This document shows, piece by piece, positions 25,860-59,596 of a stretch of 64,000 nt of DNA (position 1 is its first letter; each line of letters begins with the position of its first letter). Source of the DNA: Reichenbachiella sp. (GTDB taxonomy: Bacteria > Bacteroidota > Bacteroidia > Cytophagales > Cyclobacteriaceae). A program made the position numbers and the translations under genes. The stretch is from contig NZ_JAWPMM010000001.1 of the NCBI RefSeq assembly GCF_033344935.1, positions 1,660,001 to 1,724,000 of the forward strand, written 5' to 3'. The notes under the pieces are model-generated. The model was not told the origin of the DNA. It saw only the letters and a program-made list of their open reading frames with translations, and did not search any database.

Positions 25860-26276
25860 ATGAAAAATACAATGAAAAATACAATGAAAAAACCGACCAT
25901 CATCGGTATTGGGATCCTTATCGCATTACTTTCCCTAAAAGCCTCAGGCCAAACGAAAGGGGATATAAGTGGCACTTGGTATGCTGAAGAAATGGATCAA
26001 TCGACTATAGAGGTCACTCAACTTTCTGATGGAAGCTACGAAGGGATCATTCGATCTTCTGCCAAAAATGAATTTGTTGGTCATAAAGTCATTTACGATT
26101 TTGAATATGATTCGGACGAAAAAGACTACAAAGGGACTATCAACTCGGCAGCAAGGAATATGGAATTGGACGGAACCATTGTACTTGAGGAAAAAGGCAA
26201 GTTGAAAATTACCGGTAAAAAGTTCTTCATGACCAAAACTTTTTATTGGACTAAAGAAAAAGATTATGAAAAATAA
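25860..26276 (+). CDS. Small secreted DUF2147-like protein in efflux operon
   Basis: 138 residues counted from the ATG at 25860. Two further in-frame ATGs (25872, 25884) come from a tandem 12-base repeat (ATGAAAAATACA), and the one at 25884 would give the cleanest signal peptide (MKKPTIIGIGILIALLSLKASGQ). The mature part reads GDISGTWYAEEMDQSTIEVTQLSDGSYEGII... YEKDYKGTINSAARNMELDG..., a small beta-rich lipocalin-like pattern similar to DUF2147 proteins. Role in the pump unknown. Confidence 0.7.
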   Translation: MKNTMKNTMKKPTIIGIGILIALLSLKASGQTKGDISGTWYAEEMDQSTIEVTQLSDGSYEGIIRSSAKNEFVGHKVIYDFEYDSDEKDYKGTINSAARNMELDGTIVLEEKGKLKITGKKFFMTKTFYWTKEKDYEK

Positions 26277-26808
26277 GGTGAAAATACTCATTGGCTTACT
26301 TGTATTGTTGCTAAGTGCTGTAACATATGGCCAGTCACAATGGGAGATTCGCCAGGACTATTCCATTACATTTTCGGGTACTGGGGCGGAAGGTTCTTTC
26401 AGGGGTCTTGAAGGGAGCATTCAGTTTGACCCTGACAACCTTGACCAATCTCAGTTTAATGTTTCAATTAACCCTGCAACGATCTCCACAGGTAATAAAA
26501 CAAAAAATAAACATGCGAGGGGCGACTCATGGTTTGATGTGGAGAAGTACACAAAGGTTGGTTTTGTATCCGAGGAAATTAAGAAAACTGATGGTGGTTA
26601 TGTTGCCGAAGGCATGCTGACTATGCATGGAGTATCCAATAAAGATCAAATCAATTTTACTTTTTCAAGGCAGCAAAGCAATATGGGTCTTTTCGAGGGA
26701 ATCATGAAGGTCAACCGTGAAGACTATGGCATAGAAGGACCACTGATCTCATTTATGGTTGGCGATGAATTTGAGGTAAGGATTAGTTTGCCAGTGAAAA
26801 AAGAATGA
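26266..26808 (+). CDS. YceI-like periplasmic lipid-binding protein
   Basis: 180 residues, signal peptide ending in TYGQS. The beta-barrel pattern WEIRQDYSITFSGTGAEGSFRGLEGSIQFDPDNLDQSQFNVSINPATISTGNK and TMHGVSNKDQINFTF is the YceI/polyisoprenoid-binding signature, though the first motif is shortened. Overlaps the previous gene by 11 bases and closes the efflux operon. Together with the DUF2147-like protein it hints that the pump handles a lipophilic compound. Confidence 0.85.
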   Translation: MKNKVKILIGLLVLLLSAVTYGQSQWEIRQDYSITFSGTGAEGSFRGLEGSIQFDPDNLDQSQFNVSINPATISTGNKTKNKHARGDSWFDVEKYTKVGFVSEEIKKTDGGYVAEGMLTMHGVSNKDQINFTFSRQQSNMGLFEGIMKVNREDYGIEGPLISFMVGDEFEVRISLPVKKE

Positions 26809-26883
26809 CAAGAAGCATTCTTCATTATATGTGTTCATCAAAATTGATTTTTACTCAATCTTCCATGAGAGCACTGTAATGGC

Positions 26884-27000
26884 ATACAACGACCAACTAT
26901 CATCCGTAAGCTGGTCTTTTCAAATATCCACTAAAGTATCTCATCGCACCAGCCTTTGCAAATAGCTCTGTTTGCTTATGGATGATAGTGTTTGTTATGT
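26884..27000 (-). repeat. attC-like site 4 (array end)
   Basis: Minus strand: core ACATAAC (26994-27000) overlapping the TAA of the upstream gene, arm CTATCATCCATAAGC (26974-26988), spacer, arm GCTTACGGATGATAG (26897-26911), core GTTGTAT (26884-26890). The arms match at 14 of 15 positions. Confidence 0.65.
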
Positions 27001-27768
27001 GTTTTGTATTGATAAAGATTTCGTAGAAAGAAACAGGTCTATGTAATAGCTCTTATTCTTATCGTCTCTTTGCAGTTCAAATTTATTTTGCTCATGTCTT
27101 ATAAAAACGACTCTGTATTCTTGTTCCCAGCTAAAACATTCACGTTTCGTGAAGACTATGAAGCTCAATATTGCATCTATCATGTGAGATTCATCAACCA
27201 AATGAATCTTTTGAGAATCAGATAGTTTTTTGAAGATGGCAATTATTTCTAGAGCCAATAATCTTTGCTCGTCAAAGTCGTAGATTATAAAGCCTTCAAT
27301 GGTTTTATACAATAAATCGGTGTGGTGTAAACGAAATCCATCATTAATTTTTTCTTGATGCCGAGAATTGGATAGTAGGTCAAAGAAGAACTGTTGCTCA
27401 ATTAATATTTGCGTGTCTCCATAGTCTTTATCTTGAAATTTTTTTAAATCCTTTTCTTTGGTGGCACAAAAAACATAACAGTATTTTAAATAGGTTTCGA
27501 TGCTATTGATGAGCCTCAAAAACAATGCTAACGTTGGTTCATTAAGGACTGTTTGAGATTCGTTCGTGAGTATAGAAATTCCAAATTTCAGTTCTTCCTT
27601 ATCTATGAAAGAATCCCCTCTAGTGATTTGAAGATTGTTGGTGGAGACTATGTTTTCTGCGATTTTTTTTGGCTTTACATGATACAGTTCTGAGTCCACC
27701 ATTCTAAAGGACCGAAAGATTGGGATGAATTCATCGTGTTCAGTGAAGATTACTCTCAATGAGGTCAT
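26995..27768 (-). CDS. Cassette gene, DUF2971-like C-terminal motif
   Basis: 257 residues from the ATG at 27768. A frame-open TTG at 27786 lies across the core box and is not used. No clear family over the whole length. The region FTKRECFSWEQEYRVVFIRHEQNKFEL resembles the W-x2-E-x-EYR signature of DUF2971, while residues 40-130 look like a helical regulatory region. Soluble, no signal peptide. The start lies 12 bases inside a core box and the stop is embedded in the next, as expected for a gene cassette. Function unknown. Confidence 0.6.
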   Translation of the reverse strand: MTSLRVIFTEHDEFIPIFRSFRMVDSELYHVKPKKIAENIVSTNNLQITRGDSFIDKEELKFGISILTNESQTVLNEPTLALFLRLINSIETYLKYCYVFCATKEKDLKKFQDKDYGDTQILIEQQFFFDLLSNSRHQEKINDGFRLHHTDLLYKTIEGFIIYDFDEQRLLALEIIAIFKKLSDSQKIHLVDESHMIDAILSFIVFTKRECFSWEQEYRVVFIRHEQNKFELQRDDKNKSYYIDLFLSTKSLSIQNT

Positions 27769-27774
27769 ATTTAC

Positions 27775-27970
27775 ACATAACGCCAACTGTATGTTTTCGT
27801 GGCTGAATTAAAGGTAGTGAAATTTCGGTTTACCACGGAGTCAATCTGCAAGATTGACTTGCTAAATTTGTCCTCCGAAGCTAGTCAATCTTGCAGATTG
27901 ACGGGATTTCAACGAAGAACCAATGCCTCGAAAACCACTAAACAGCCATGAAATATACAGAGTGTTAGGT
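27775..27970 (-). repeat. attC-like site 3 with nested palindromes
   Basis: Minus strand: core ACCTAAC (27964-27970), arm beginning CTGTAT, long spacer, arm ending ATACAG (27787-27792), core GTTATGT (27775-27781). The spacer contains two 19-base words, GTCAATCTGCAAGATTGAC (27840-27858) and its exact reverse complement (27884-27902), each nearly palindromic. Confidence 0.6.
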
Positions 27971-27974
27971 GTAT

Positions 27975-29237
27975 TTATTCTTTCGAGTATAATATTATCA
28001 TTCGAGCTATTTCAGCTATCATTTCCATTTCTACTCTCAAGATATCAATGTTCTTTGGAGTTGGTATAAATGGAATAGCTTTAGTTTCGTCAAAATCTGG
28101 ATTGGAGTGAACGATTGAACACCTTAAGGAATACACGCGTTTTGTTAAATTCTGATAAAAATTACCTTCTTTACCAAAGTCAATAGCAGGAAGGGTTAAA
28201 GGTTTATTGCATTGAATAGTAATGTCCTTTTCGAAATGTTCAATAAGTTCGTATTCATTCAATGCACTTTGAAGCTCCTCTCTATTGATGTATTGTCTTA
28301 AGACACGTTCTATTTTAATTTTATCAGTCGTGTGTTTTTCATTTTCTTTTTTAAAGATATTGATTGCTTGATTGATGTAATGATCTGTTTTAACATGAAA
28401 ATCAGGTTTTAGCATAAGCTTTTTTACTTCATCAGACACAATTTTATAAGCACTTTTGTCGCTGAAATATTCAATAATATGATAATAGGTGATAAACTTA
28501 AATGGTAAGAAATCCACCTTTTCAGCAGTGTGGAAATACTGAATGAGTTCAGGGATGTAGTTTTTATAGATGAGATCAATTTTCTTTTCTGGTAACTCAA
28601 TACCTCTTTTTCTTCTTCTTATACCTCTACGAAGAAGCCCCTCAATATTCATTGTTTCAAATCCTAATTCGTATGTAAATTCGACATCAAATAGCACAGA
28701 GTTAAGAATGTTTCTAATATCATTCATTTGTCCTTCCACCGAAGGTTTCTTAAAACCATGAATTTTAAGAATCGTCACTCTCCTTCTAGAAAACCTTTTT
28801 CCACCACGGAGAAATTCCATAAACTTTGGGAGTGTACTGTCCTCATTCTGTCCTGCCTCAAACACTATGTTTAAGTCGTTATTGAAGTATTTCATACCAA
28901 TTTCTAAAAAGTGGGTATGTGATTCATCTTCATTCTCAGTAGGTATTCGAGATGATCTAAATGATACTGGTATAAGAAGAACTTCGATTACACCATCAGA
29001 TTTGATTGCTAAAAAATCCTGAAATATGAAAATTCCTTTTAGTGTGAGATCAAATAATCGCTGTGCATCTTCTTTTGTTTCAAAGTATAATTGCACGTCA
29101 GGATTTCCTGAATATCCTGTAACGTAGTAAGTTGTACCACTCTCTTCGCTGCCATCAGCCCATCTATAGTTGTAATCTCGAGCTTCAATATTTAAATCAG
29201 GAAATGTTTCTTTAAAATTCTTAAGTATTGCTTCCAT
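27975..29237 (-). CDS. Cassette gene with C-terminal HEPN-like domain
   Basis: 420 residues. The C-terminal ~100 residues, YQNLTKRVYSLRCSIVHSNPDF followed by IDILRVEMEMIAEIARMI, match the pattern of HEPN (Apea-like) helical domains. RCSIVH supplies the R-x4-H motif of the HEPN ribonuclease group. Residues ~60-110 are a short beta-rich block and 200-330 are helical. No signal peptide or membrane segment. HEPN proteins of this kind occur as toxins, abortive-infection and anti-phage effectors; whether this one is an active RNase is inference. The ATG at 29237 lies 14 bases inside a core box. Confidence 0.65.
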   Translation of the reverse strand: MEAILKNFKETFPDLNIEARDYNYRWADGSEESGTTYYVTGYSGNPDVQLYFETKEDAQRLFDLTLKGIFIFQDFLAIKSDGVIEVLLIPVSFRSSRIPTENEDESHTHFLEIGMKYFNNDLNIVFEAGQNEDSTLPKFMEFLRGGKRFSRRRVTILKIHGFKKPSVEGQMNDIRNILNSVLFDVEFTYELGFETMNIEGLLRRGIRRRKRGIELPEKKIDLIYKNYIPELIQYFHTAEKVDFLPFKFITYYHIIEYFSDKSAYKIVSDEVKKLMLKPDFHVKTDHYINQAINIFKKENEKHTTDKIKIERVLRQYINREELQSALNEYELIEHFEKDITIQCNKPLTLPAIDFGKEGNFYQNLTKRVYSLRCSIVHSNPDFDETKAIPFIPTPKNIDILRVEMEMIAEIARMIILYSKE

Positions 29238-29251
29238 TTTGAATCGGTTAC

Positions 29252-29412
29252 ACCTAACGCACAGCTATGATGAGTGGGGATTAGAAAGCACTACCTCTCG
29301 TCTCGCACATAGCCACGCCTTGATTTAAATTTAAAACTTGTGGCGGACTTTCCAATCCCTACGAAAATATCCTGACCGATGAAACCCCATTCATTCATAG
29401 CATATGTTAGCG
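29252..29412 (-). repeat. attC-like site 2, best match to the canonical design
   Basis: Minus strand: core CGCTAAC (29406-29412), arm GCTATGAATGAATGGGG, spacer, arm CCCCACTCATCATAGC, core GTTAGGT (29252-29258, exact GTTRRRY). One arm has a single extra base relative to the other, like the extrahelical base used by integron integrases for strand choice. Confidence 0.7.
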
Positions 29413-29416
29413 AGAT

Positions 29417-30571
29417 TTAGTTAATTCCAATTCTGCCAATTGCAGGGTAAATATGGTTTTTCATTATGGCATATGTATCGTTTTCAATATTCCATTTGTT
29501 ATAGTTTCCCGCTGTGGTGACAACAATTAAATCATTCTCCAAATCCCAATAAATATTCTGGTCTCCATTTCCGTTTGCCGCTACAATTCTTATGTCCTTA
29601 CCTATGATTATATCAGGCCACATCCAAAATTGATAGCCGTATCCATCGTTAAATTCAGTGACATCACTCGGAAATGCTACTTTTTGAGTAAATGATTTAT
29701 TGACCCACTCTGCAGAAAGAACATGCTCATTGTTCCATTTTCCTTTATTTCGATAGAGTAATCCAATTTTTAGTAAGTCTCTTGAAGTAATTCTTAAGCC
29801 CGAAGGAGCAGCAAATTCATCTGCACCATTATAAGCAGAGTACTTATTCCATTCAAATTTTTCAATTCCAAGTGGAAGAAATAAATGCTCATTCACAAAT
29901 CGATCTAATGTAGTGTTTGAAGAACGTTCAATAATTTCCGCAAGTACCTGGGTAGCTCCACCATTGTAGTTAAAATTCACTCCTGGTGAATCATCTAATA
30001 GTTTACTCAATACATATGTTACAGGATTCTCGCTGTAGGTCATTTGAATTTCATCGTTTTCTGGATTGTTATAAGGAACATCTTCGTTCCAAGCCAAACC
30101 AGTAGTCATGGTTAAGAAATGCTCAATTGTCCATTGGGATTTTTCCTCATTAAATTCTATTTCAGGGAAAAAATCAGCTATCTTTTGATCTACTCCTTTT
30201 ATTATTTTTTGATCTATTGCAATGCCAATGCACGCTGATACAATACTTTTGGAAATGCTCCGAACATCATGAAGGGTAGTGTCTGTATGGTGTACAATGC
30301 CAATATCATTTCCATAGTTCTGATCACTTCCTGAGAAATACTTCTCGTAAATTAATGAACCGTCCTTAATCACAAGTAGGCTATGGATATTTGGATAAAA
30401 TTGGGAACGTATTTTTTTTGTTAGATCATTTAATATCGCAGTATCTATTCCAACCTCAGTAGGAGACAATAATGGGATTTCAGGTTCAGAATGGACAATA
30501 TTAGTAGCCTGTTTTGACTTATTTCCTGAACACCCAACGAGTACTATTAAAATTAGGAGTCCTTGTCTCAT
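29417..30571 (-). CDS. Beta-lactamase-family serine hydrolase lipoprotein (cassette)
   Basis: 384 residues with a lipobox (LVLVGC). Class-C-type catalytic motifs: SISK (S-x-x-K) in HDVRSISKSIVSACIG near residue 111, and YNGG (Y-x-G/N) near 200. ITSRDLLKIGLLYRNKGKWN and GYGYQFWMWPD follow the serine-hydrolase (beta-lactamase domain) pattern. Probably an outer-membrane or periplasmic esterase or peptidase; resistance activity is possible but not shown. The stop lies within 11 bases of the core box of site 2. Confidence 0.85.
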   Translation of the reverse strand: MRQGLLILIVLVGCSGNKSKQATNIVHSEPEIPLLSPTEVGIDTAILNDLTKKIRSQFYPNIHSLLVIKDGSLIYEKYFSGSDQNYGNDIGIVHHTDTTLHDVRSISKSIVSACIGIAIDQKIIKGVDQKIADFFPEIEFNEEKSQWTIEHFLTMTTGLAWNEDVPYNNPENDEIQMTYSENPVTYVLSKLLDDSPGVNFNYNGGATQVLAEIIERSSNTTLDRFVNEHLFLPLGIEKFEWNKYSAYNGADEFAAPSGLRITSRDLLKIGLLYRNKGKWNNEHVLSAEWVNKSFTQKVAFPSDVTEFNDGYGYQFWMWPDIIIGKDIRIVAANGNGDQNIYWDLENDLIVVTTAGNYNKWNIENDTYAIMKNHIYPAIGRIGIN

Positions 30572-47159: not shown

Positions 47160-48698
47160 TTATAAACATCCTGTAAATGTTACATCTAGATAATCACTCA
47201 TTTCAGTCCCGTCATTGGTGGTTGCCGTTACACGTACCGTTCCGGTACTGTTAAAGTCAAGCATTCCTTCAGAAGAAATAGTGGCAGTTTCTTCATCATC
47301 AATGCTCCAGGTTACGGATTCGTCAGATACATTTTCAGGGGCAATTGAGGTTTTGAGTTGCATAGAAAGCGTACAATCATTTGGCCCTGAAACAAATTTC
47401 TTCTCAGGGAACGGGATGTCGTCAGAATCAACTATTTCTATATTGGTTGCAAGAATTGGATTTACTGTAATACTGGCTGTACCAGATATGTCTGTTTCGA
47501 TAGCTGCTGTTGCCTTCACTACAATATCAAAAGTCTCTGGAGCTATTCCTGTCACTAATCCAGTCTCTGAAACAGAGGCGTAATCATTCGGGTTTGCATC
47601 TGGAAAACCCGAAGCAAAGTCTATAGACCAAGTCACATTTTTATTGCTAGCATTTTCGGGAAGTATGGTTGCTGTCATTTGTTCTGTGCCTTCCACATCA
47701 ATCGTAATTGACGAAGGATCTAGTGTGATACTCGTAACGTCTACATAAGTAATTTCAACAGGTAGTTCGTCAGAGAATTCTCCTTCAAACGTAGTGGCAA
47801 CGGCAATTAGCCCACATCCATCACAAGGGTTTTTGCTTGTAATGACGCCAGTTCCGGAGTCAATCTCGGCATAATAATCCACGTCTACGGGTACACGAAT
47901 AGGAACAGGGATTTCCTCATTGCGAATGCGGCCTGATTGGTCAAGATACAACGACCAAATGACGGTTTGATTGGTAGCGTTGGACGGCTCTACTGTGGCT
48001 GCCAGCTGGTAGGTTGTACTGCCGGCAATGGAGATGGGGTCATTGTCTATTTTGACACCTGTTACCGCAATGTTTGTTATGGAAACATCGACACTAGCTG
48101 TAAATTCACCATCTTTTGTTTTGGCCGTTACCACTACGTCGCCAGCCGCTATTGCAGTCACTAGACCGGTTTCACTCACTGTGGCAATGTCGGTAGGTTC
48201 ATCTTCACTTGACTTCGACCCGGACGGAAAGGCTACTGACCAGGTGATGTCTTTTTCAGTTGCATCTTCTGGTGAAATCGTGGCGACAAGTTGTAAGGTT
48301 TCCCCAACTTTTAGATTGGCCTCTGATTCGTCAAGGACTACACCCGTTACTGCAATTATATTGGCTATCACCTCTACTTCAATTGAAGCAGTGAGCCCTG
48401 AATTGGCTTCGGTGGCCGTAACAGTTGTAGTGCCTACTTTTTCTGCGGTAAGTATATGGCCTGATACGCTCACTACAGAGGCATCTGAGGAGGAAAAGGA
48501 TATTTCTGCCTGATCGGCATCGCTTCCGGTCACTTCAATGGCAGTAGTCAGGTCATAAGTGAATCCTTCGGTGACAGTTACCTTGTCGCCATCAAATTGG
48601 ATATCCGTAATGTCTATTTCAGGATCATCTTCTGTACATCTGAAGAGAAGAGTGCACAAGAAAATAGCACTCAAAAGGAGAGAATTTGGCTTCATCAT
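47160..48698 (-). CDS. Big_2-type Ig-like lipoprotein A
   Basis: 512 residues, lipobox LLFRC (after LLLSAIFLCTLLFRC). At least four Big_2-like repeats of ~85 residues (ITLDPSSITIDVEGTEQMTATILPENASNKNVTWSIDF, VTGVVLDESEANLKVGETLQLVATISPEDATEKDITWSV). Surface-exposed structural or adhesive protein. Close paralogue of the gene at 50452, with the same first ~110 residues and repeat order. No enzymatic domain. The ATG at 48698 or the second Met (48695) may be used. Confidence 0.88.
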   Translation of the reverse strand: MMKPNSLLLSAIFLCTLLFRCTEDDPEIDITDIQFDGDKVTVTEGFTYDLTTAIEVTGSDADQAEISFSSSDASVVSVSGHILTAEKVGTTTVTATEANSGLTASIEVEVIANIIAVTGVVLDESEANLKVGETLQLVATISPEDATEKDITWSVAFPSGSKSSEDEPTDIATVSETGLVTAIAAGDVVVTAKTKDGEFTASVDVSITNIAVTGVKIDNDPISIAGSTTYQLAATVEPSNATNQTVIWSLYLDQSGRIRNEEIPVPIRVPVDVDYYAEIDSGTGVITSKNPCDGCGLIAVATTFEGEFSDELPVEITYVDVTSITLDPSSITIDVEGTEQMTATILPENASNKNVTWSIDFASGFPDANPNDYASVSETGLVTGIAPETFDIVVKATAAIETDISGTASITVNPILATNIEIVDSDDIPFPEKKFVSGPNDCTLSMQLKTSIAPENVSDESVTWSIDDEETATISSEGMLDFNSTGTVRVTATTNDGTEMSDYLDVTFTGCL

Positions 48699-50451: not shown

Positions 50452-51999
50452 TTAACAGCCATTGTAGTTTATTACAATGTCAATAGAATCGCTTGCTCCG
50501 GCTCCGTCATTAGCTTCTACCGTTACTTTAATTGTCGTATTTAAAGGGAAAGGAGCATTTGGCCCTAACTCGATTACACCATTTTTATCTATAGGTAATA
50601 TATCAGGACTTTCTGAACTCCAGGTCACTGAGGAATTGTAGGGGAATGTAGCACTTATGCTTACTCCTAAATCATATGATCCGCAACCATTAAAGTTGAT
50701 TGAACTTACTGGTTCACCAGTATTATCTAAAATATCTAAAGATTCTACTGGGTTGATTACATCGAATTCAACTGTGGCCGGATCTACCAAATCGGGATGA
50801 TGAGCTCTTACAATTAGATTGTTATTGCAGTCGTCAAAGAAGGAATTCAGCCCAGTGAGTGAGCCATTTTCATCAACCGTGGCATAGGTGTCGAAATCAA
50901 TTGAACTCAACCCACAAAGATCAGGAACACCGGTGTGAGATATATCCCATGAACTAACCGTTTTGTCAGTCGCGTTTTCTGGAAGTATCGTGAAATTTAT
51001 TTGGCGAGTATTTCCTTTGATAATCTCAAATAGTTCATTGGGATCAAGTGTGATACTGGTCACAGGAATATATTTAATCGTGACGCTGATATAGCTGGAT
51101 ACCTCACCATCTTTTGATGTTACTCGTGCGATAAATGCGCATTCATCACATCTTTCTTTCGCTTTTAGCAATCCATCTTGAGAAATTTCTAAATAGTAAT
51201 CTACAGTAGGAGATGCAATTTGTGTTCTGCCGGCTTCGGCATCGAAATCCACCGACCAGGTTACGTCTTTTATGGTTGCATTATCAGGAATTATGGTCGC
51301 TGTGAGTTGAACTGTTTCATTTACATTGACCGTTGCACTTTCTGGTGAAATGGTAATTTGTGTCACCGCGATATTGGTGACTGAGATTGATACACTGGCG
51401 GTAAACTCGCCATCTTTGGTTTTGGCTGTAACTACTACATCACCTGCAGAGAGTGCTTTCACCAATCCTTGATCGGATACGGTAGCAATAGCTGATGGGC
51501 TGTCCTCTGTATTTTTAGAGCCAGAAGGAAAGGTCACGCTCCAAATGATTCCTTTTTCAGTGGCGTCCTCAGGGGCAATGGTAGCTGTCAGCTGTAGCTC
51601 GTCGCCCACTTTTAAATCGGCTTCAGTTTGGTTTAGGGATACGCCTGTTACATCTACTTCTTTGGCCACGACCTCCACATTCACAGTGGCGGTCAATTCG
51701 GAATTGGCTTCAGTTGCCGTCAAGGTGGTATTGCCTGCTTTTACTGCAGTCAGTGTAAATCCATCTACAGAGACAATAGTGGCATCTCCGGATGTGAAAG
51801 ATATTTGTGCCTGATCGGCATCCGCTCCAGATACAGTGAGGACTGTATCTAAATCAACGGTGAAACCTTCTGTAACAGTTACTTTTTCTCCATCAAATTT
51901 GATGTCTGTAATGTCAACCTCAGGTTCGTCTTCCGTACAGCCAAAAACGATGACTGTAGCTAATAAAATGCTGGTTAATAATGTTTTTAATTGCTTCAT
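50452..51999 (-). CDS. Big_2-type Ig-like lipoprotein B
   Basis: 515 residues, lipobox VIVFGC. Four or more Big_2-like repeats (ITISPESATVNVNETVQLTATIIPDNATIKDVTWSVDF). Paralogue of 47160-48698: residues ~20-215 nearly parallel (VTVTEGFTVDLDT vs VTVTEGFTYDLTT, AQISFTSGDATIVSVDG vs AEISFSSSDASVVSVSG). The C-terminal ~250 residues diverge. Probably a surface adhesin; sits with its paralogue around a barrel protein gene. Confidence 0.88.
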   Translation of the reverse strand: MKQLKTLLTSILLATVIVFGCTEDEPEVDITDIKFDGEKVTVTEGFTVDLDTVLTVSGADADQAQISFTSGDATIVSVDGFTLTAVKAGNTTLTATEANSELTATVNVEVVAKEVDVTGVSLNQTEADLKVGDELQLTATIAPEDATEKGIIWSVTFPSGSKNTEDSPSAIATVSDQGLVKALSAGDVVVTAKTKDGEFTASVSISVTNIAVTQITISPESATVNVNETVQLTATIIPDNATIKDVTWSVDFDAEAGRTQIASPTVDYYLEISQDGLLKAKERCDECAFIARVTSKDGEVSSYISVTIKYIPVTSITLDPNELFEIIKGNTRQINFTILPENATDKTVSSWDISHTGVPDLCGLSSIDFDTYATVDENGSLTGLNSFFDDCNNNLIVRAHHPDLVDPATVEFDVINPVESLDILDNTGEPVSSINFNGCGSYDLGVSISATFPYNSSVTWSSESPDILPIDKNGVIELGPNAPFPLNTTIKVTVEANDGAGASDSIDIVINYNGC

Positions 52000-54370: not shown

Positions 54371-54383
54371 TAACTAACTTTTG

Positions 54384-54749
54384 ATGATGACTAAACTTAG
54401 ACTTTACCTCACGATCAACTATGCCTTCTCAGCATTCAGCGGCACAACTATGCTATTGTTTTCGGAGCAACTCAACCAAATTTTTCACTTTTCTGATCCT
54501 TTACTGTTTCCGATTATCGGGGCGAATCTTCTGGTATTTGCGGTGTTTGTTTTTTATGTCACAGGTTGGCAAATAGAAAAATCTGGGCTCGTAAAATTGA
54601 TCAGTTTGATGGATGCTGGTTGGGTAGTGGGCAGTGTATTTTTACTTCTTTTCGGTCCTTTTGGGATTAGTCCAATCGGCCTTTGGATCATTGGAATTGT
54701 AGCCGTTTGGATTGGCTTTTTGGGATACAAACAGTATTCAAATTTGTGA
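54384..54749 (+). CDS. Small membrane protein, unknown
   Basis: 121 residues from the ATG at 54384 (a TTG at 54381 and an ATG at 54387 also in frame). Four hydrophobic segments (about 10-28, 40-60, 70-88, 95-115). Begins 13 bases after the AlkC gene. No family recognised. Confidence 0.65.
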   Translation: MMTKLRLYLTINYAFSAFSGTTMLLFSEQLNQIFHFSDPLLFPIIGANLLVFAVFVFYVTGWQIEKSGLVKLISLMDAGWVVGSVFLLLFGPFGISPIGLWIIGIVAVWIGFLGYKQYSNL

Positions 54750-54916: not shown

Positions 54917-55147
54917 ATGGAAAATATTCGAGAATGGTTAATAGCTAAGATTGCTGAAGAAGCTGAAGTTGATAAGGGTACCGTAGATTGCCATATGGAT
55001 TTTGAAGACTTTGACCTTGATTCTTTGGCCTTAGTTTCTTTGTCCTACGATCTAGAGAGCTTTTTGAATAAAGAAATAAGTCCTACCGTATTTTCGGAGT
55101 ATAACACGATTGACAAGTTAACTACATGGTTGGAAAGTCAAAAATAG
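54917..55147 (+). CDS. Acyl/peptidyl carrier protein
   Basis: 76 residues. DLDSLALVSLSYDLESF carries the phosphopantetheine site Ser 36 in LDSL, followed by the acidic helix II and TIDKLTTWLES. Stand-alone carrier protein; its substrate could be an acyl, aminoacyl or peptidyl group. First gene of a four-gene operon, overlapping the P450 by 22 bases. Confidence 0.92.
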   Translation: MENIREWLIAKIAEEAEVDKGTVDCHMDFEDFDLDSLALVSLSYDLESFLNKEISPTVFSEYNTIDKLTTWLESQK

Positions 55148-56316
55148 TTTGGAACCCACATACTTCTGGGTACTTTGATAATCCATATGATCATCTCAAG
55201 GCTTGTAGAGAGGAAAACCCAATCCATAGAATTTTAAATGACGCGTGGATATTTTTGAGATATTCTGATGTTAGTCAAACGCTGTCATCACAAGATTTTA
55301 TGGTTTCGGAGTTCAGTCAATTTCTTAAAGAGAAGGAACCTTACATATTTAAACACTCCGACACTTGCCCTTACCTTTCGAAAGGCACAAAAATGTGGAC
55401 GATGTATTTGAACGATGAGGTTCATAAAAATGCACGTATTGGAATGACTAAATCACTAAACTTAAATCAGCTCGATGAAGTGATGGCCAATGCAGTGGAC
55501 GAGATAAATGAAAAGCACCAGCTTAAATCGAGTTTTGATCTGGTTTCCTATTGTGGTGAATTTATCTATTTAATCCTAAAGTGGATTTTGGGAATTAGAG
55601 ATTTAGGAAGCTTTGAGACAATCAAAACATACTCGAATATGCTGGCTCGAGTTCAGGATATTTATGTCCCAAAGCAACTGTATCAAAAGATAAATGAATG
55701 GTTCCTCTCTGGTAAAAACATTTTTACAGAATCTGAGTTTAGACAAAACTTAGTCAATTATTCTACGAAGTCGGGTATAAATTATACTGAGGACGAAATT
55801 TATTCCATTACCAGCTTGGTTTTAATGGCGGCCTTCGAAACTTCGAAAGACAATCTATCTGTAGCGTTGTGGGAAATAATGAAAAGTGAAGAAATACAGA
55901 ATCATGTCGAGACTTGCTCTAAAAAAGAATTAAACCTCTTAATTGAAGAGCTATTTCGCTTTTCATCCCCTTTGCAATATACCATTCGAGTGAATAAGAA
56001 TTCTTTGGAGACGGAATCAGGAATAATATCAGCCAACTCGAAAATTTATCTCTCATTAGCTAGTGCAAATCATGATGATACAGTATTTGCAAATCCAGAC
56101 AAAATTGTTGCGGGCAGAACACCAAATGATCACCTGGCTTTTGGAAAAGGTTTGCACTTCTGTCTAGGTGCAACAATAGCTCGATTGGAGCTCAGGTATT
56201 GTCTTAAACCTATGGTGCATTTATTAAAGCAATATAAAGTAGAAGGTTCACCAGATTGGTCCAAACAGATTTTTATGAGGACTATGAATTCCGCGAAGAT
56301 CTCAAAGAACAAGTAA
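55126..56316 (+). CDS. Cytochrome P450 monooxygenase
   Basis: 396 residues. Heme-ligand motif FGKGLHFCLGA (Cys 346), K-helix ELFR (ExxR) in LIEELFRFSSP, and an I-helix AAFETSKDN in place of the usual AGxxT. All core motifs are intact. Bacterial P450s of this length use a ferredoxin partner; none is encoded nearby. Overlap with the carrier-protein gene suggests the P450 acts on a carrier-bound substrate, as CYP enzymes of NRPS pathways do. Substrate unknown. Confidence 0.93.
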   Translation: MVGKSKIVWNPHTSGYFDNPYDHLKACREENPIHRILNDAWIFLRYSDVSQTLSSQDFMVSEFSQFLKEKEPYIFKHSDTCPYLSKGTKMWTMYLNDEVHKNARIGMTKSLNLNQLDEVMANAVDEINEKHQLKSSFDLVSYCGEFIYLILKWILGIRDLGSFETIKTYSNMLARVQDIYVPKQLYQKINEWFLSGKNIFTESEFRQNLVNYSTKSGINYTEDEIYSITSLVLMAAFETSKDNLSVALWEIMKSEEIQNHVETCSKKELNLLIEELFRFSSPLQYTIRVNKNSLETESGIISANSKIYLSLASANHDDTVFANPDKIVAGRTPNDHLAFGKGLHFCLGATIARLELRYCLKPMVHLLKQYKVEGSPDWSKQIFMRTMNSAKISKNK

Positions 56317-56317
56317 T

Positions 56318-57703
56318 ATGGTTGGAGCCAATTTTCTATTTGTAGCAGTTTTCGTAATTGTAACAGCCTCTTTAATAAGGCTTGTGAAACAACCTCATAG
56401 ATGGAAAGTGCTTTTAGCAACTAGTTCAATTTCATATTACTTGCTAATTGGAAATTCAGTTCTGGTTGTACTGTCTCTCGCTGTTATTAGTTATTGGGCA
56501 AGTTTCACAATTTCAAAAAAGACTAGAATTAGTTTTTCGCAAGTGATTGTCATTCTTTTAGCACCTTTAATCATTTATAAATGTGTAACTCCAACTAATC
56601 ATTTTGTCGAATATGGCATAGATACTTTAGGAGGGGGGGATTCCACCGAATGGGTTTCCTTTTTTGAAATACTAGGGCTGTCTTACATTACATTTAATGC
56701 TATTAGTTATTTAGTTGATATTAAAAGAGGCTATGTCGAAGTGCAAAAAAATTTCTGTCTCTTATTGCTCTATTTAATTTATTTGCCAGCTGTCTTTTCG
56801 GGACCACTTCACAGAGCTAAGTACTTATTTTCAGAATTTCAAAAAATTGAGGTTAATGATAAAAATGTTTCTTGTGGGCTGCGTCTAATACTTTGGGGAA
56901 TATTTAAGAATGTAGTATTAGCTCAGACTATATATGATTTATTGATACAATTAAATAAAACTGAAATCGCAGGGGCTTATTATTTGATTGTTGGGTTTAT
57001 GTTCTTCCTCTATCTCTATTGCAACTTCAGCTCGTTTATTGATTTTTTTCAAGGAGTCTCTCAAATTTGGGGAATTACACTGAAAAGCAATTTTTTAAAT
57101 CGAGTTTACCTTTCAACTTCCAGACAACAGTTTTGGAAGGGCTGGCACATTACGCTCAATGAATGGTTTCGGGATTATTTCTTTTTTGTTGCATCAAAAT
57201 ATGACCGAGAGAGAAGGTATGCGAATGTATTGCTTCTTATAACGTTTATTCTGATTGCACTATGGCACGAACTATCCTTAGTTCTTTTGATCTGGGGAAT
57301 GGGGAACGGACTATGGATTGTAATTGAAAAAATGGTACCATTCAAGAATTGGCAGTTTGTAAAGTATAGGAAGGTTTTAGGCGTAGGTTATCATTTGTGT
57401 CTATCTAGTTTGTTGGCATTGGTATTTATTACTCCATCAATTTCAGGTTTTGCTTCCAGACTTTGGGATCTTAGTTATTTCCCGATTTCATTTATTCATG
57501 ATTACCTAACTAGAATACTAATTGTAATTTTCGGTTTTCTTATCATGGATTTTCATTACGCAAGAGCAGGGAAATTAAGATTCGATAACTACCTGGAAGG
57601 TCAGAGTGGAATAACCCGATGGGCAATATATTATAAATTAGCTGCCTTGATTCTAATATTTGGAATTAGTGGCGGGGTAGAAAACTATTATATTCAGTTT
57701 TAA
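56318..57703 (+). CDS. MBOAT-family O-acyltransferase
   Basis: 461 residues, ~11 membrane segments. SGPLHRAKY near 161-169, the motif WHITLNEWFRDYFFF (H277), and the catalytic histidine in ALWHELS (H317). Pattern and size as DltB/AlgI: transfers an acyl or D-alanyl group from a carrier protein across the membrane onto a polymer or lipid. Begins 1 base after the P450 stop. Codon composition is more AT-rich than the surroundings by eye. Confidence 0.93.
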   Translation: MVGANFLFVAVFVIVTASLIRLVKQPHRWKVLLATSSISYYLLIGNSVLVVLSLAVISYWASFTISKKTRISFSQVIVILLAPLIIYKCVTPTNHFVEYGIDTLGGGDSTEWVSFFEILGLSYITFNAISYLVDIKRGYVEVQKNFCLLLLYLIYLPAVFSGPLHRAKYLFSEFQKIEVNDKNVSCGLRLILWGIFKNVVLAQTIYDLLIQLNKTEIAGAYYLIVGFMFFLYLYCNFSSFIDFFQGVSQIWGITLKSNFLNRVYLSTSRQQFWKGWHITLNEWFRDYFFFVASKYDRERRYANVLLLITFILIALWHELSLVLLIWGMGNGLWIVIEKMVPFKNWQFVKYRKVLGVGYHLCLSSLLALVFITPSISGFASRLWDLSYFPISFIHDYLTRILIVIFGFLIMDFHYARAGKLRFDNYLEGQSGITRWAIYYKLAALILIFGISGGVENYYIQF

Positions 57704-57713
57704 AGAGATTTAG

Positions 57714-58679
57714 ATGAAAAGTAGTCTTCTCAAACTAGGAATATTTCTTTTGACCATGCTTGCGTTTTATGTAGCATTGAAAAATATCAAACTTGATCAA
57801 CAAGTTGTTGAAAGTAAAACTGAATTTTCAACCAAAGCTTTAATTGATGTTGATAATACCTCTCTATTTTTCATAGGTTCTAGTCGGGTTCAGAGGGCCA
57901 TAGATCCTCATTTACTTGAGTCTGAGTTGAAAAACTATTCGATTAATAATTTGGGAATATCTGGATCGACGTTTTTGGGAAATTGCGTAGTAGCAGATCA
58001 TATATTGAGGTTGCCAGGAAAGAAGGTGATTTTCATTGAACTTTCTCCACTCAAGCATGACATTCCTTCGGGAGTATTCAAATTTGGAGAAGTGGAAAAA
58101 TTTAATGTACTGTCAAAAGTGTTTCAACTGACAGAGAATTTGGGATTGTCAACGCAACTAATGCTAGTGTTGGATGTTCTTAATACAAGAATGTTTTCAC
58201 AGATTTCACTAAAGAATGATGTGAAGAGAATATTTAGATATAAGCAAAGTATTGAAAAAGATAATCAATGGATAGGTTATCGTCCGACTAATTTACAGTC
58301 CAGAGATAAACTTATTCGATTTTTGAGGTCTTCAGATGTGGAGGATTCCTGTTTTAGCAACTACAAACTCTATATTGAGATGATTAATGATTTGGATGAA
58401 TTGGCTTCATTCTCTGATGGAGAAATTGTTTTCTTTTTACCTCTGACTTATTTGAAAGAAACTGAAGTGCGTATTGCAACCGACTTGTTTGCCATTTTAC
58501 CAGAACGAATGAAATTAAGATTTTCTGATCGATTTATACAATCATGTAGTTCAGAAGACTATATGGCCGACAAAAATCACTTCAATAAAAAGGGGGCTAC
58601 TAATTATTCGAAAGGAATGATTCATCAAATTCAAAACTATTTTCAAGAGAAAAATAAAAAGGAAAATTCAAATTTGTAA
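57714..58679 (+). CDS. DltD/AlgJ-like SGNH-fold protein
   Basis: 321 residues, N-terminal membrane anchor (residues 4-22), then an SGNH-like pattern: FIGSSRVQRA (Ser 56/57), NNLGISGSTFLGN, FIELSPLKHD and the terminal ADKNHFNKKGATNYS (D...H). Partner proteins of MBOAT acyltransferases (DltD, AlgJ, AlgX) have this fold and help acyl transfer at the outer face. Last gene of the operon; 10 bases after the MBOAT stop. Confidence 0.82.
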   Translation: MKSSLLKLGIFLLTMLAFYVALKNIKLDQQVVESKTEFSTKALIDVDNTSLFFIGSSRVQRAIDPHLLESELKNYSINNLGISGSTFLGNCVVADHILRLPGKKVIFIELSPLKHDIPSGVFKFGEVEKFNVLSKVFQLTENLGLSTQLMLVLDVLNTRMFSQISLKNDVKRIFRYKQSIEKDNQWIGYRPTNLQSRDKLIRFLRSSDVEDSCFSNYKLYIEMINDLDELASFSDGEIVFFLPLTYLKETEVRIATDLFAILPERMKLRFSDRFIQSCSSEDYMADKNHFNKKGATNYSKGMIHQIQNYFQEKNKKENSNL

Positions 58680-58883: not shown

Positions 58884-58914
58884 CCCTAACAGGGTTTCAA
58901 ACCCTGTTAGGGTT
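58882..58914. repeat. REP hairpin left of RAYT
   Basis: Perfect inverted repeat with 16-base arms around a single C; identical to 59564-59596. Confidence 0.85.
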
Positions 58915-58929
58915 AATTAATTCAATTTT

Positions 58930-59556
58930 ATGAAAAATACCGACCAACTTCAACCTAGTACATACTATCATATCTATAATCGTGGGATCAATGGTGAAGT
59001 AATTTTCAAAAAACCTGAAAATTATGCTTATTTTCTTCGGAAATTCAACTTATATATTTCGCCTGTAGCGGATACATTTGCCTTTTGTTTGCTCAAGAAT
59101 CATTTTCATTTTTTAATACAGACTAATAGTGAAAGTGAGATAGACGAATTCAAATTAATTCAACCTAAATTCAAAGAAAAAAAGGCGAATCAGGTGCTAA
59201 GCTTGCAGTTTGCACATTTTTTTAATGGGTATTCACAGGCTATCAACAAGCAAGAGAAAAGAACTGGCAAGTTGTTTGAATTGCCATTTAGGAGAGTTGC
59301 AGTAGCGGATAATTCTTATTTCACCCGTTTGATTTATTATATTCATGCTAACCCAGAACGTCATAGACTGGTCGATGATTTTAAGATTTATCGATATTCT
59401 TCATATATGAGTCATTTGAGTCATAAGTCCACAAGACTTCAAAGAGATAAGGTACTCGAATGGTTTGGAGGAGTAAAATTGTATAAGAAATTTCACCAAG
59501 AACTTCAGATTGATAGTAAGTTGTCTGGTCATGATTTTCAAGATTTTGATTGCTAA
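58930..59556 (+). CDS. REP-associated tyrosine transposase (RAYT, Y1 type)
   Basis: 208 residues. HUH motif NHFHFLI (H58, H60) and catalytic tyrosine region FFNGYSQAINKQEKRTGKLFELPF (Tyr 101), with the Y1 signatures YHIYNRGIN and YYIHANPERHRLV. Intact. Such proteins cut and move single-stranded REP hairpins. Flanked by matching hairpins. Confidence 0.92.
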   Translation: MKNTDQLQPSTYYHIYNRGINGEVIFKKPENYAYFLRKFNLYISPVADTFAFCLLKNHFHFLIQTNSESEIDEFKLIQPKFKEKKANQVLSLQFAHFFNGYSQAINKQEKRTGKLFELPFRRVAVADNSYFTRLIYYIHANPERHRLVDDFKIYRYSSYMSHLSHKSTRLQRDKVLEWFGGVKLYKKFHQELQIDSKLSGHDFQDFDC

Positions 59557-59563
59557 AACATTC

Positions 59564-59596
59564 AACCCTAACAGGGTTTCAAACCCTGTTAGGGTT
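59564..59596. repeat. REP hairpin right of RAYT
   Basis: Identical to 58882-58914, 8 bases after the transposase stop. Confidence 0.85.

Follow-up and report, generated by a model that had tools for sequence, protein, structure and literature searches.

The described pairs of membrane-bound O-acyltransferase (MBOAT) and SGNH proteins, as outlined in part of PMC12148441, either take the acyl group directly from acyl-CoA or, in the Dlt system, are supplied by a carrier protein together with the microprotein DltX. An 'acyl shuttle' motif, FXYXXF, is located on DltX in Dlt, where a carrier protein feeds the system, and at the C-terminus of the MBOAT protein in acyl-CoA-fed systems such as PatA, which the same portion of PMC12148441 describes as lacking a carrier protein. 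We have investigated a locus that unites elements of both types in a stretch of 64,000 nucleotides from Reichenbachiella sp. (GCF_033344935.1, contig NZ_JAWPMM010000001.1, positions 1,660,001 to 1,724,000), referred to here as the window. Four genes encoding an acyl carrier protein (ACP), a cytochrome P450, a DltB-like MBOAT and an SGNH-like protein lie in a single operon, which we read, with a probability of roughly 0.6, as a self-contained trans-membrane acylation cassette in which an ACP-bound acyl group is oxidised by the P450 and exported by the MBOAT and SGNH-like proteins to a surface acceptor.

All four genes are encoded on the plus strand. The ACP (76 amino acids, 54917..55147) matches PF00550 over the cut-off at 46.2 bits and bears its phosphopantetheine attachment site, Ser36, within D35-S36-L37, and the P450 (396 amino acids, 55126..56316) matches PF00067, also over the cut-off, at 60.3 bits. 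The MBOAT acyltransferase (461 amino acids, 56318..57703; PF03062, 40.2 bits, over the cut-off) terminates in an acyl-shuttle-like motif, NYYIQF, and is followed by the SGNH-like protein (321 amino acids, 57714..58679), likely the acyltransferase to the acceptor, which begins with a hydrophobic helix and contains the invariant residues S57, N79 and H289. The ACP and P450 genes overlap by 22 bases, and gaps of 1 and 10 bases separate the P450 from the MBOAT and the MBOAT from the SGNH-like gene, respectively. These open reading frames (ORFs) and spacings agree with the tight packing reported in the first-pass annotation of this DNA, as does its statement that a ligase is not found nearby, an AMP-binding gene being absent from the window and all six detected in the genome (E≤0.001) lying elsewhere. 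PADLOC, searched for a defence function, did not match any of the four proteins.

Association of the four genes is conserved, all four occurring together in 38 genomes distributed over nine genera and three families of one order. Order and strand are shared by 36 of these genomes (eight genera, three families), and in two genomes of the ninth genus, G692 and G751, the genes are arranged as divergent neighbouring pairs, ACP-P450 and MBOAT-SGNH. Since all four genes are still neighbours in spite of this rearrangement, the association outlives a change in gene order. The first-pass annotation made its reading depend on the genes being kept together elsewhere; they are, in 38 genomes, and as neighbours even where the order has changed in two. 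Chance adjacency was considered and rejected on the basis of the shared context in 38 genomes, the gene trees described below and the divergent sets. The sets were gathered by MBOAT or P450 similarity using profiles which include the window copy, so that ranking arises partly by construction and gene context is the independent part of the evidence. The 36 collinear genomes were picked for holding all four genes, with order and strand compared afterwards, an initial choice that favoured collinear operons; the divergent sets stand outside the trees and residue counts. Profile searches scored 4-7 candidates per genome, absence from which is no proof of absence, and flanking genes were identified by eye unless a family search is named.

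Within the order sample (291 genomes), the MBOAT profile gave 15 matches at E≤1e-155 followed by a drop to 2e-83. All of these top 15 are encoded in an ACP-P450-MBOAT-SGNH arrangement, while 15 of the next 17 ranks were fetched and none (0/15) has an ACP or P450 gene within 1.5 kb; the C-terminus of these 15 non-cassette MBOATs is FIYFQF. The order sample and that of the family of G248 together yielded 38 MBOATs at E≤1e-95, 35 in a collinear four-gene operon and three, those of G986, G988 and G991, not. The family of G248 (222 genomes) contributed 20 further sets and a P450-profile search of 245 genomes in a family sample contributed G777, the 36th collinear operon. The divergent sets were located via their P450s, from five left-over P450 loci that were checked, and their MBOATs end in FYYFQF (G692) and FYYFKF (G751). 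Outside the order, no set was detected in 395 genomes of the phylum using the P450 and MBOAT profiles, with none of three phylum loci having both ACP and P450. A plasmid search returned only P450s of <60% identity, and a weak peptide-pattern scan of contigs returned four loci with remote P450s only, which is uninformative on spread. Among the open-access papers listed in literature searches, a description of the four-gene set was not found.

The four genes also appear to share a common history. Distances in the four gene trees correlate with r values of 0.92-0.98, a level reached in 0 of 999 permutations, the relatedness of the hosts being uncorrected in this comparison. In G950 and G926, genomes of genus g69, all four cassette genes group with those of G959 (genus g348) and not with the other g69 copies, with support of 0.91, 0.995, 0.97 and 0.998 across the four trees. 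Placement of all four G950 and G926 genes with G959 points to transfer of the whole set, and the cassette is accordingly regarded as mobile.

The characteristics of the MBOAT and its partner point towards an envelope function. The MBOAT family profile detects two sequences among solved structures (E≤0.001), both of which are DltB (E 1e-32). H317, Y458 and F461 are invariant (36/36), and the C-terminus of every MBOAT in the 36 collinear cassettes reads x-[FY]-Y-x-x-F. The presence of an ACP together with a Tyr motif on the MBOAT C-terminus therefore combines a Dlt-type carrier with a Pat-type fused shuttle, with no DltX. In the fourth protein, S57, N79 and H289 are retained in 36/36 copies and D286 in 33/36. 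The designation 'SGNH' denotes these three invariant residues and the position beside the MBOAT, without a family match, and the residues would fit an SGNH acyltransferase. Comparison with the PDB produced a weak trace with alignment A3 (E 0.0026) and none with alignment A5. The DltD family, PF04914, has no match in the window genome at E≤1 and, across 18 genomes, its sole match within a cassette is that of G201, at 15.1 bits against a cut-off of 22.7. Matches over the cut-off in G047 and G102 lie outside the cassette, and 3/14 control genomes also match; among alignment members, 1/10 in A3 matched at E 0.011 and 0/13 in A5.

A mechanism consisting of four steps can be proposed from these features. 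The ACP would carry an acyl group, probably derived from a fatty acid or a similar carboxylic acid, which may be loaded by an adjoining fatty-acyl-AMP ligase (FAAL) in 16/36 relatives and, in the window, by fatty acid synthesis or an unlinked enzyme. The P450 would then oxidise the ACP-bound chain, most simply by hydroxylation, and the MBOAT would move the acyl group from the ACP onto its own Tyr458 using His317, a chemistry modelled on DltX and PatA. The tyrosyl-bound acyl group would finally pass to the periplasmic SGNH-like protein, through Ser57, and from there to an acceptor on the surface that is probably a polysaccharide. Judged by the genes near the operon in some relatives, a surface glycan is the likeliest acceptor. 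In G242, Wzi-like genes flank the operon on both sides, accompanied by sugar epimerase and heparinase-like genes; the operon of G245 follows glycosyltransferase and polysaccharide-synthesis genes; and in G248, GT2, DegT and FdtA genes are located ∼4-6 kb downstream. No polysaccharide neighbours were recognised beside the window copy or the FAAL-less copies of clade II, the operons of genus g69, in which the neighbours are varied. This would also suit a small secondary-metabolite pathway, in which ACP and P450, with FAAL where present, produce an oxidised lipid, the MBOAT uses a small molecule as its acyl acceptor and the SGNH-like protein serves as an esterase or transfer partner, with no surface polymer involved. 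FAAL, ACP and P450 genes are indeed common in natural-product clusters. We nevertheless regard such a pathway as unlikely, as the listed neighbours, read by eye, include no recognisable condensing or release enzyme, and the MBOAT and SGNH-like proteins bear the features of an envelope-acylation pair, including the C-terminal shuttle Tyr in 36/36 copies.

The proposed second step would have the P450 act on ACP-bound substrate. D35 and S36 of the ACP are invariant (36/36), as are E238-T239, E275xxR278, H344 and C346 of the P450. The heme Cys (C346), ExxR (E275/R278) and acid-alcohol pair (E238/T239) are all in place, the hallmarks predicting an active P450 monooxygenase. P450 and ACP genes adjoin in 38/38 genomes, and the overlap is exactly 22 nt in 9/9 core clade I operons, irrespective of P450 identities there of 41-60% to the window copy. 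Spacings, measured from the nearest ATG, are only approximate for clades II and III, that of G950 being -4 by this measure and a 25 nt overlap on the ORF map. Among solved structures, the window P450 is closest to PksS (1e-27), with P450BioI well below (3e-19); for a clade II P450, the top two are again PksS and then P450BioI. According to part of PMC10741444, the fatty acids that BioI cleaves are attached to an ACP. Oxidation of a carrier-bound group, as proposed in the first-pass annotation, is thus rendered plausible by the 22 nt overlap and the kinship with PksS and BioI, the oxidation itself being an extrapolation. The substrate of PksS is likewise a chain bound to a carrier.

It is doubtful, at a level somewhat below that of a secondary-metabolite pathway, that the substrate of the P450 is instead the sugar or lipid acceptor, or the free acid prior to loading. 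Consistent with such a role, 33/33 other P450 loci scanned (L018-L034, L058-L073) are devoid of an ACP-profile match. The constant adjacency to and overlap with the ACP gene argue otherwise, as do the nearest solved relatives, which use carrier-bound substrates, and the existence of ACP-P450 pairs even without an MBOAT, in 4/4 g13 genomes having the P450 and in both g339 genomes. These pairs perhaps represent another conserved P450-carrier pathway. At the corresponding loci L042, L043, L184 and L185, neighbouring ORFs recur that resemble, by eye, a PAPS reductase and an epimerase, and at L115 and L116, also ACP-P450 pairs without an MBOAT, a second ACP is located downstream. A pimeloyl route in which the P450 cleaves acyl-ACP to dicarboxylyl-ACP for biotin, as suggested by P450BioI being the second-best solved match of the clade II P450, is very improbable, since the MBOAT and SGNH-like proteins are without a role there and the genes beside the operon, read by eye, include none recognised as a biotin gene.

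The source of the acyl-ACP would differ between cassettes. A search for a co-occurring adenylation gene, proposed as a check in the first-pass annotation, revealed a FAAL gene upstream of the ACP, with the P450 present as well, in 16/36 collinear operons, comprising 14/22 clade II operons and 2/2 of a third type (G989, G1005), with the family verified for two. G102 and G047 possess a CoA-ligase-type gene after the SGNH gene, and no ligase was seen beside the remaining 18/36 operons, including that of the window; in L159, a weak FAAL-profile match (E 2.5e-9) is situated 4.6 kb beyond the SGNH gene. With FAAL and P450 occurring jointly in 16/36 operons and the ligase otherwise varying, the P450 counts as a core member and the activating enzyme as a variable one. 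The view that a P450 stands in place of the ligase was consequently abandoned as a general rule. In G924 (L181:7043-8709), the FAAL frame is split into two overlapping parts and may be decaying. A possible unlinked loader in the window genome is a 502-amino-acid AMP ligase, 31% identical over 18-544 of the FAAL query, which adjoins genes resembling beta-ketoacyl-ACP synthase III and SDR proteins; its best NCBIfam scores are to CoA ligases, and it is not taken as the loader. The 492-amino-acid ligases of G201 and G269 are 28-29% identical to it. The FAAL query against nine relatives gave a best g72 match of E 2.5e-19 by sequence similarity.

A number of observations weigh against the four genes forming a self-contained acylation cassette directed to the surface. 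The operon in the window contains neither a ligase nor a redox partner, a polysaccharide locus was not recognised in its surroundings, and 8/22 clade II operons lack an adjacent FAAL. The fourth protein has no Pfam match at E≤0.1, and its single-sequence AlphaFold model has a pLDDT of 36, the N-terminal helix being the sole confident part. In the shuttle motif, Asn takes the place of the first Phe in 9/36 MBOATs, that of the window included, and Ala does so in 3/36. At a finer scale the gene trees are discordant: the window copy and G777 fail to group together in the ACP and MBOAT trees, as does core clade I in the SGNH tree and type III in the P450 tree. The parts are also found separately. 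G986, G988 and G991 (L163, L166 and L165, respectively) encode MBOAT-SGNH pairs that end in FFYYQF and have no ACP or P450; these are the nearest MBOAT relatives of the cassette and possibly represent an ancestral state. Conversely, the ACP-P450 pairs without an MBOAT mean that a P450-ACP link is no proof of a link to export. Finally, the substrate, the oxidation on ACP and the transfer to a surface glycan are inferred from genes.

The segment 54371..58682 (∼4.3 kb), between a HEAT-like gene and ywbE, is missing from two genomes of the same genus, G796 and G833, in which these two genes adjoin (126 bases apart in G796). A HEAT-gene search in eight genomes matched four, with G796 and G833 providing the empty site and the G777 and G859 loci not having ywbE alongside; the other four genomes are without a HEAT match. 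None of the seven further genomes from this genus (0/7) matches the P450 profile at E≤1e-30. The extra segment is most simply explained by gain in the window lineage, with loss in the other genomes as the alternative. The segment also includes a membrane-protein-like ORF of 122 amino acids (54381..54749, plus strand), which is only possibly linked to the operon and has no Pfam match and no counterpart between the HEAT gene and ywbE in G796. In agreement with the first-pass annotation, the operon is AT-richer than its surroundings, with a GC content of 34.4% compared with 40.3% for the window, and only 2/241 sliding windows of operon length are as AT-rich, both of which overlap the operon, though a second AT-rich stretch at ∼26000-30500 is nearly as low (34.6% over 3.8 kb from 26751). 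Just downstream of ywbE, an ORF resembling a REP-associated tyrosine transposase (58930-59556; NF047646, 47.6 bits, cut-off 80) has the same palindrome on both sides (58884 and 59566; region 58884-59594). Further upstream, two minus-strand proteins (47160-48698 and 50452-51999) are alike and contain repeated Ig-like units, as judged by eye, and between them are located a HAD-like ORF and an outer-membrane-protein-like ORF.

Taken a step further, the cassette may be a mobile branch of trans-envelope acylation, in which the ACP-bound chain is tailored by a P450 and then, in oxidised form, exported to a polymer of the surface by an MBOAT that is carrier-fed and has a Tyr shuttle of its own, a proposition to which we give even odds. 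If this is correct, bacteria would be able to decorate glycans with oxidised fatty acyl groups, and the association of a carrier, a fused Tyr shuttle and a dedicated oxidase would broaden the chemistry exported by MBOAT-SGNH systems. Four small co-moving genes may also serve in making oxidised glycolipids or glycans.

Comparison with known systems places the cassette between them. As in Dlt (DltA, B, C, D and X), described in part of PMC12148441, a carrier protein feeds a DltB-like MBOAT that has an SGNH-type protein as its partner. In contrast to Dlt, the cassette is without DltA or DltX, carries its shuttle motif on the MBOAT itself, always includes a P450 and, where a ligase lies upstream, has one of FAAL type. 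No DltA-type amino-acid ligase is encoded in the window; of the six genomic AMP-binding genes, four score best as CoA ligases among the best 25 NCBIfam matches and the other two appear, by eye, acetyl-CoA-synthetase-like and MenE-like. The gaps of 1 and 10 bases are too short for a DltX ORF inside the operon. The window ACP scores 15.6 bits against the DltC model NF003464 (cut-off 68) and has only its generic PP-binding match, and the MBOAT scores 116 bits against the DltB model TIGR04091 (cut-off 375). By the features tested, the cassette is not a dlt operon, as DltA and DltX are missing and no window gene matches a DltB, DltC or DltD model over the cut-off. Of the dlt-like operon envisaged in the first-pass annotation, the carrier-fed MBOAT-SGNH logic, the conserved four-gene unit and a P450 plausibly acting on carrier-bound substrate are retained, and replacement of the ligase by the P450 is not. 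PatAB and alginate-type O-acetyltransferases resemble the cassette in having an MBOAT with a C-terminal Tyr motif, a separate SGNH-type protein and no DltX. They differ in using acyl-CoA without a carrier, as given in part of PMC12148441, whereas the cassette has an ACP gene in 38/38 genomes, in addition to the P450; with that gene in 36/36 collinear and 2/2 divergent sets, the cassette does not, by its gene content, fit the Pat/Alg subtype, which is marked by an acyl-CoA donor and the lack of a carrier protein. P450BioI (CYP107H1) and PksS would share with the cassette P450 an action on carrier-bound chains, but are not tied to membrane transfer and are remote in sequence. FAAL-ACP loading pairs (FadD32-type and others) are mirrored by the FAAL upstream of the ACP in 16/36 operons, although the window is without a FAAL and no polyketide synthase was recognised downstream. 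The cassette is a variant of MBOAT-SGNH envelope acylation equipped with a carrier and a dedicated P450, and no such combination is described for those surface-acylation systems that are well studied.

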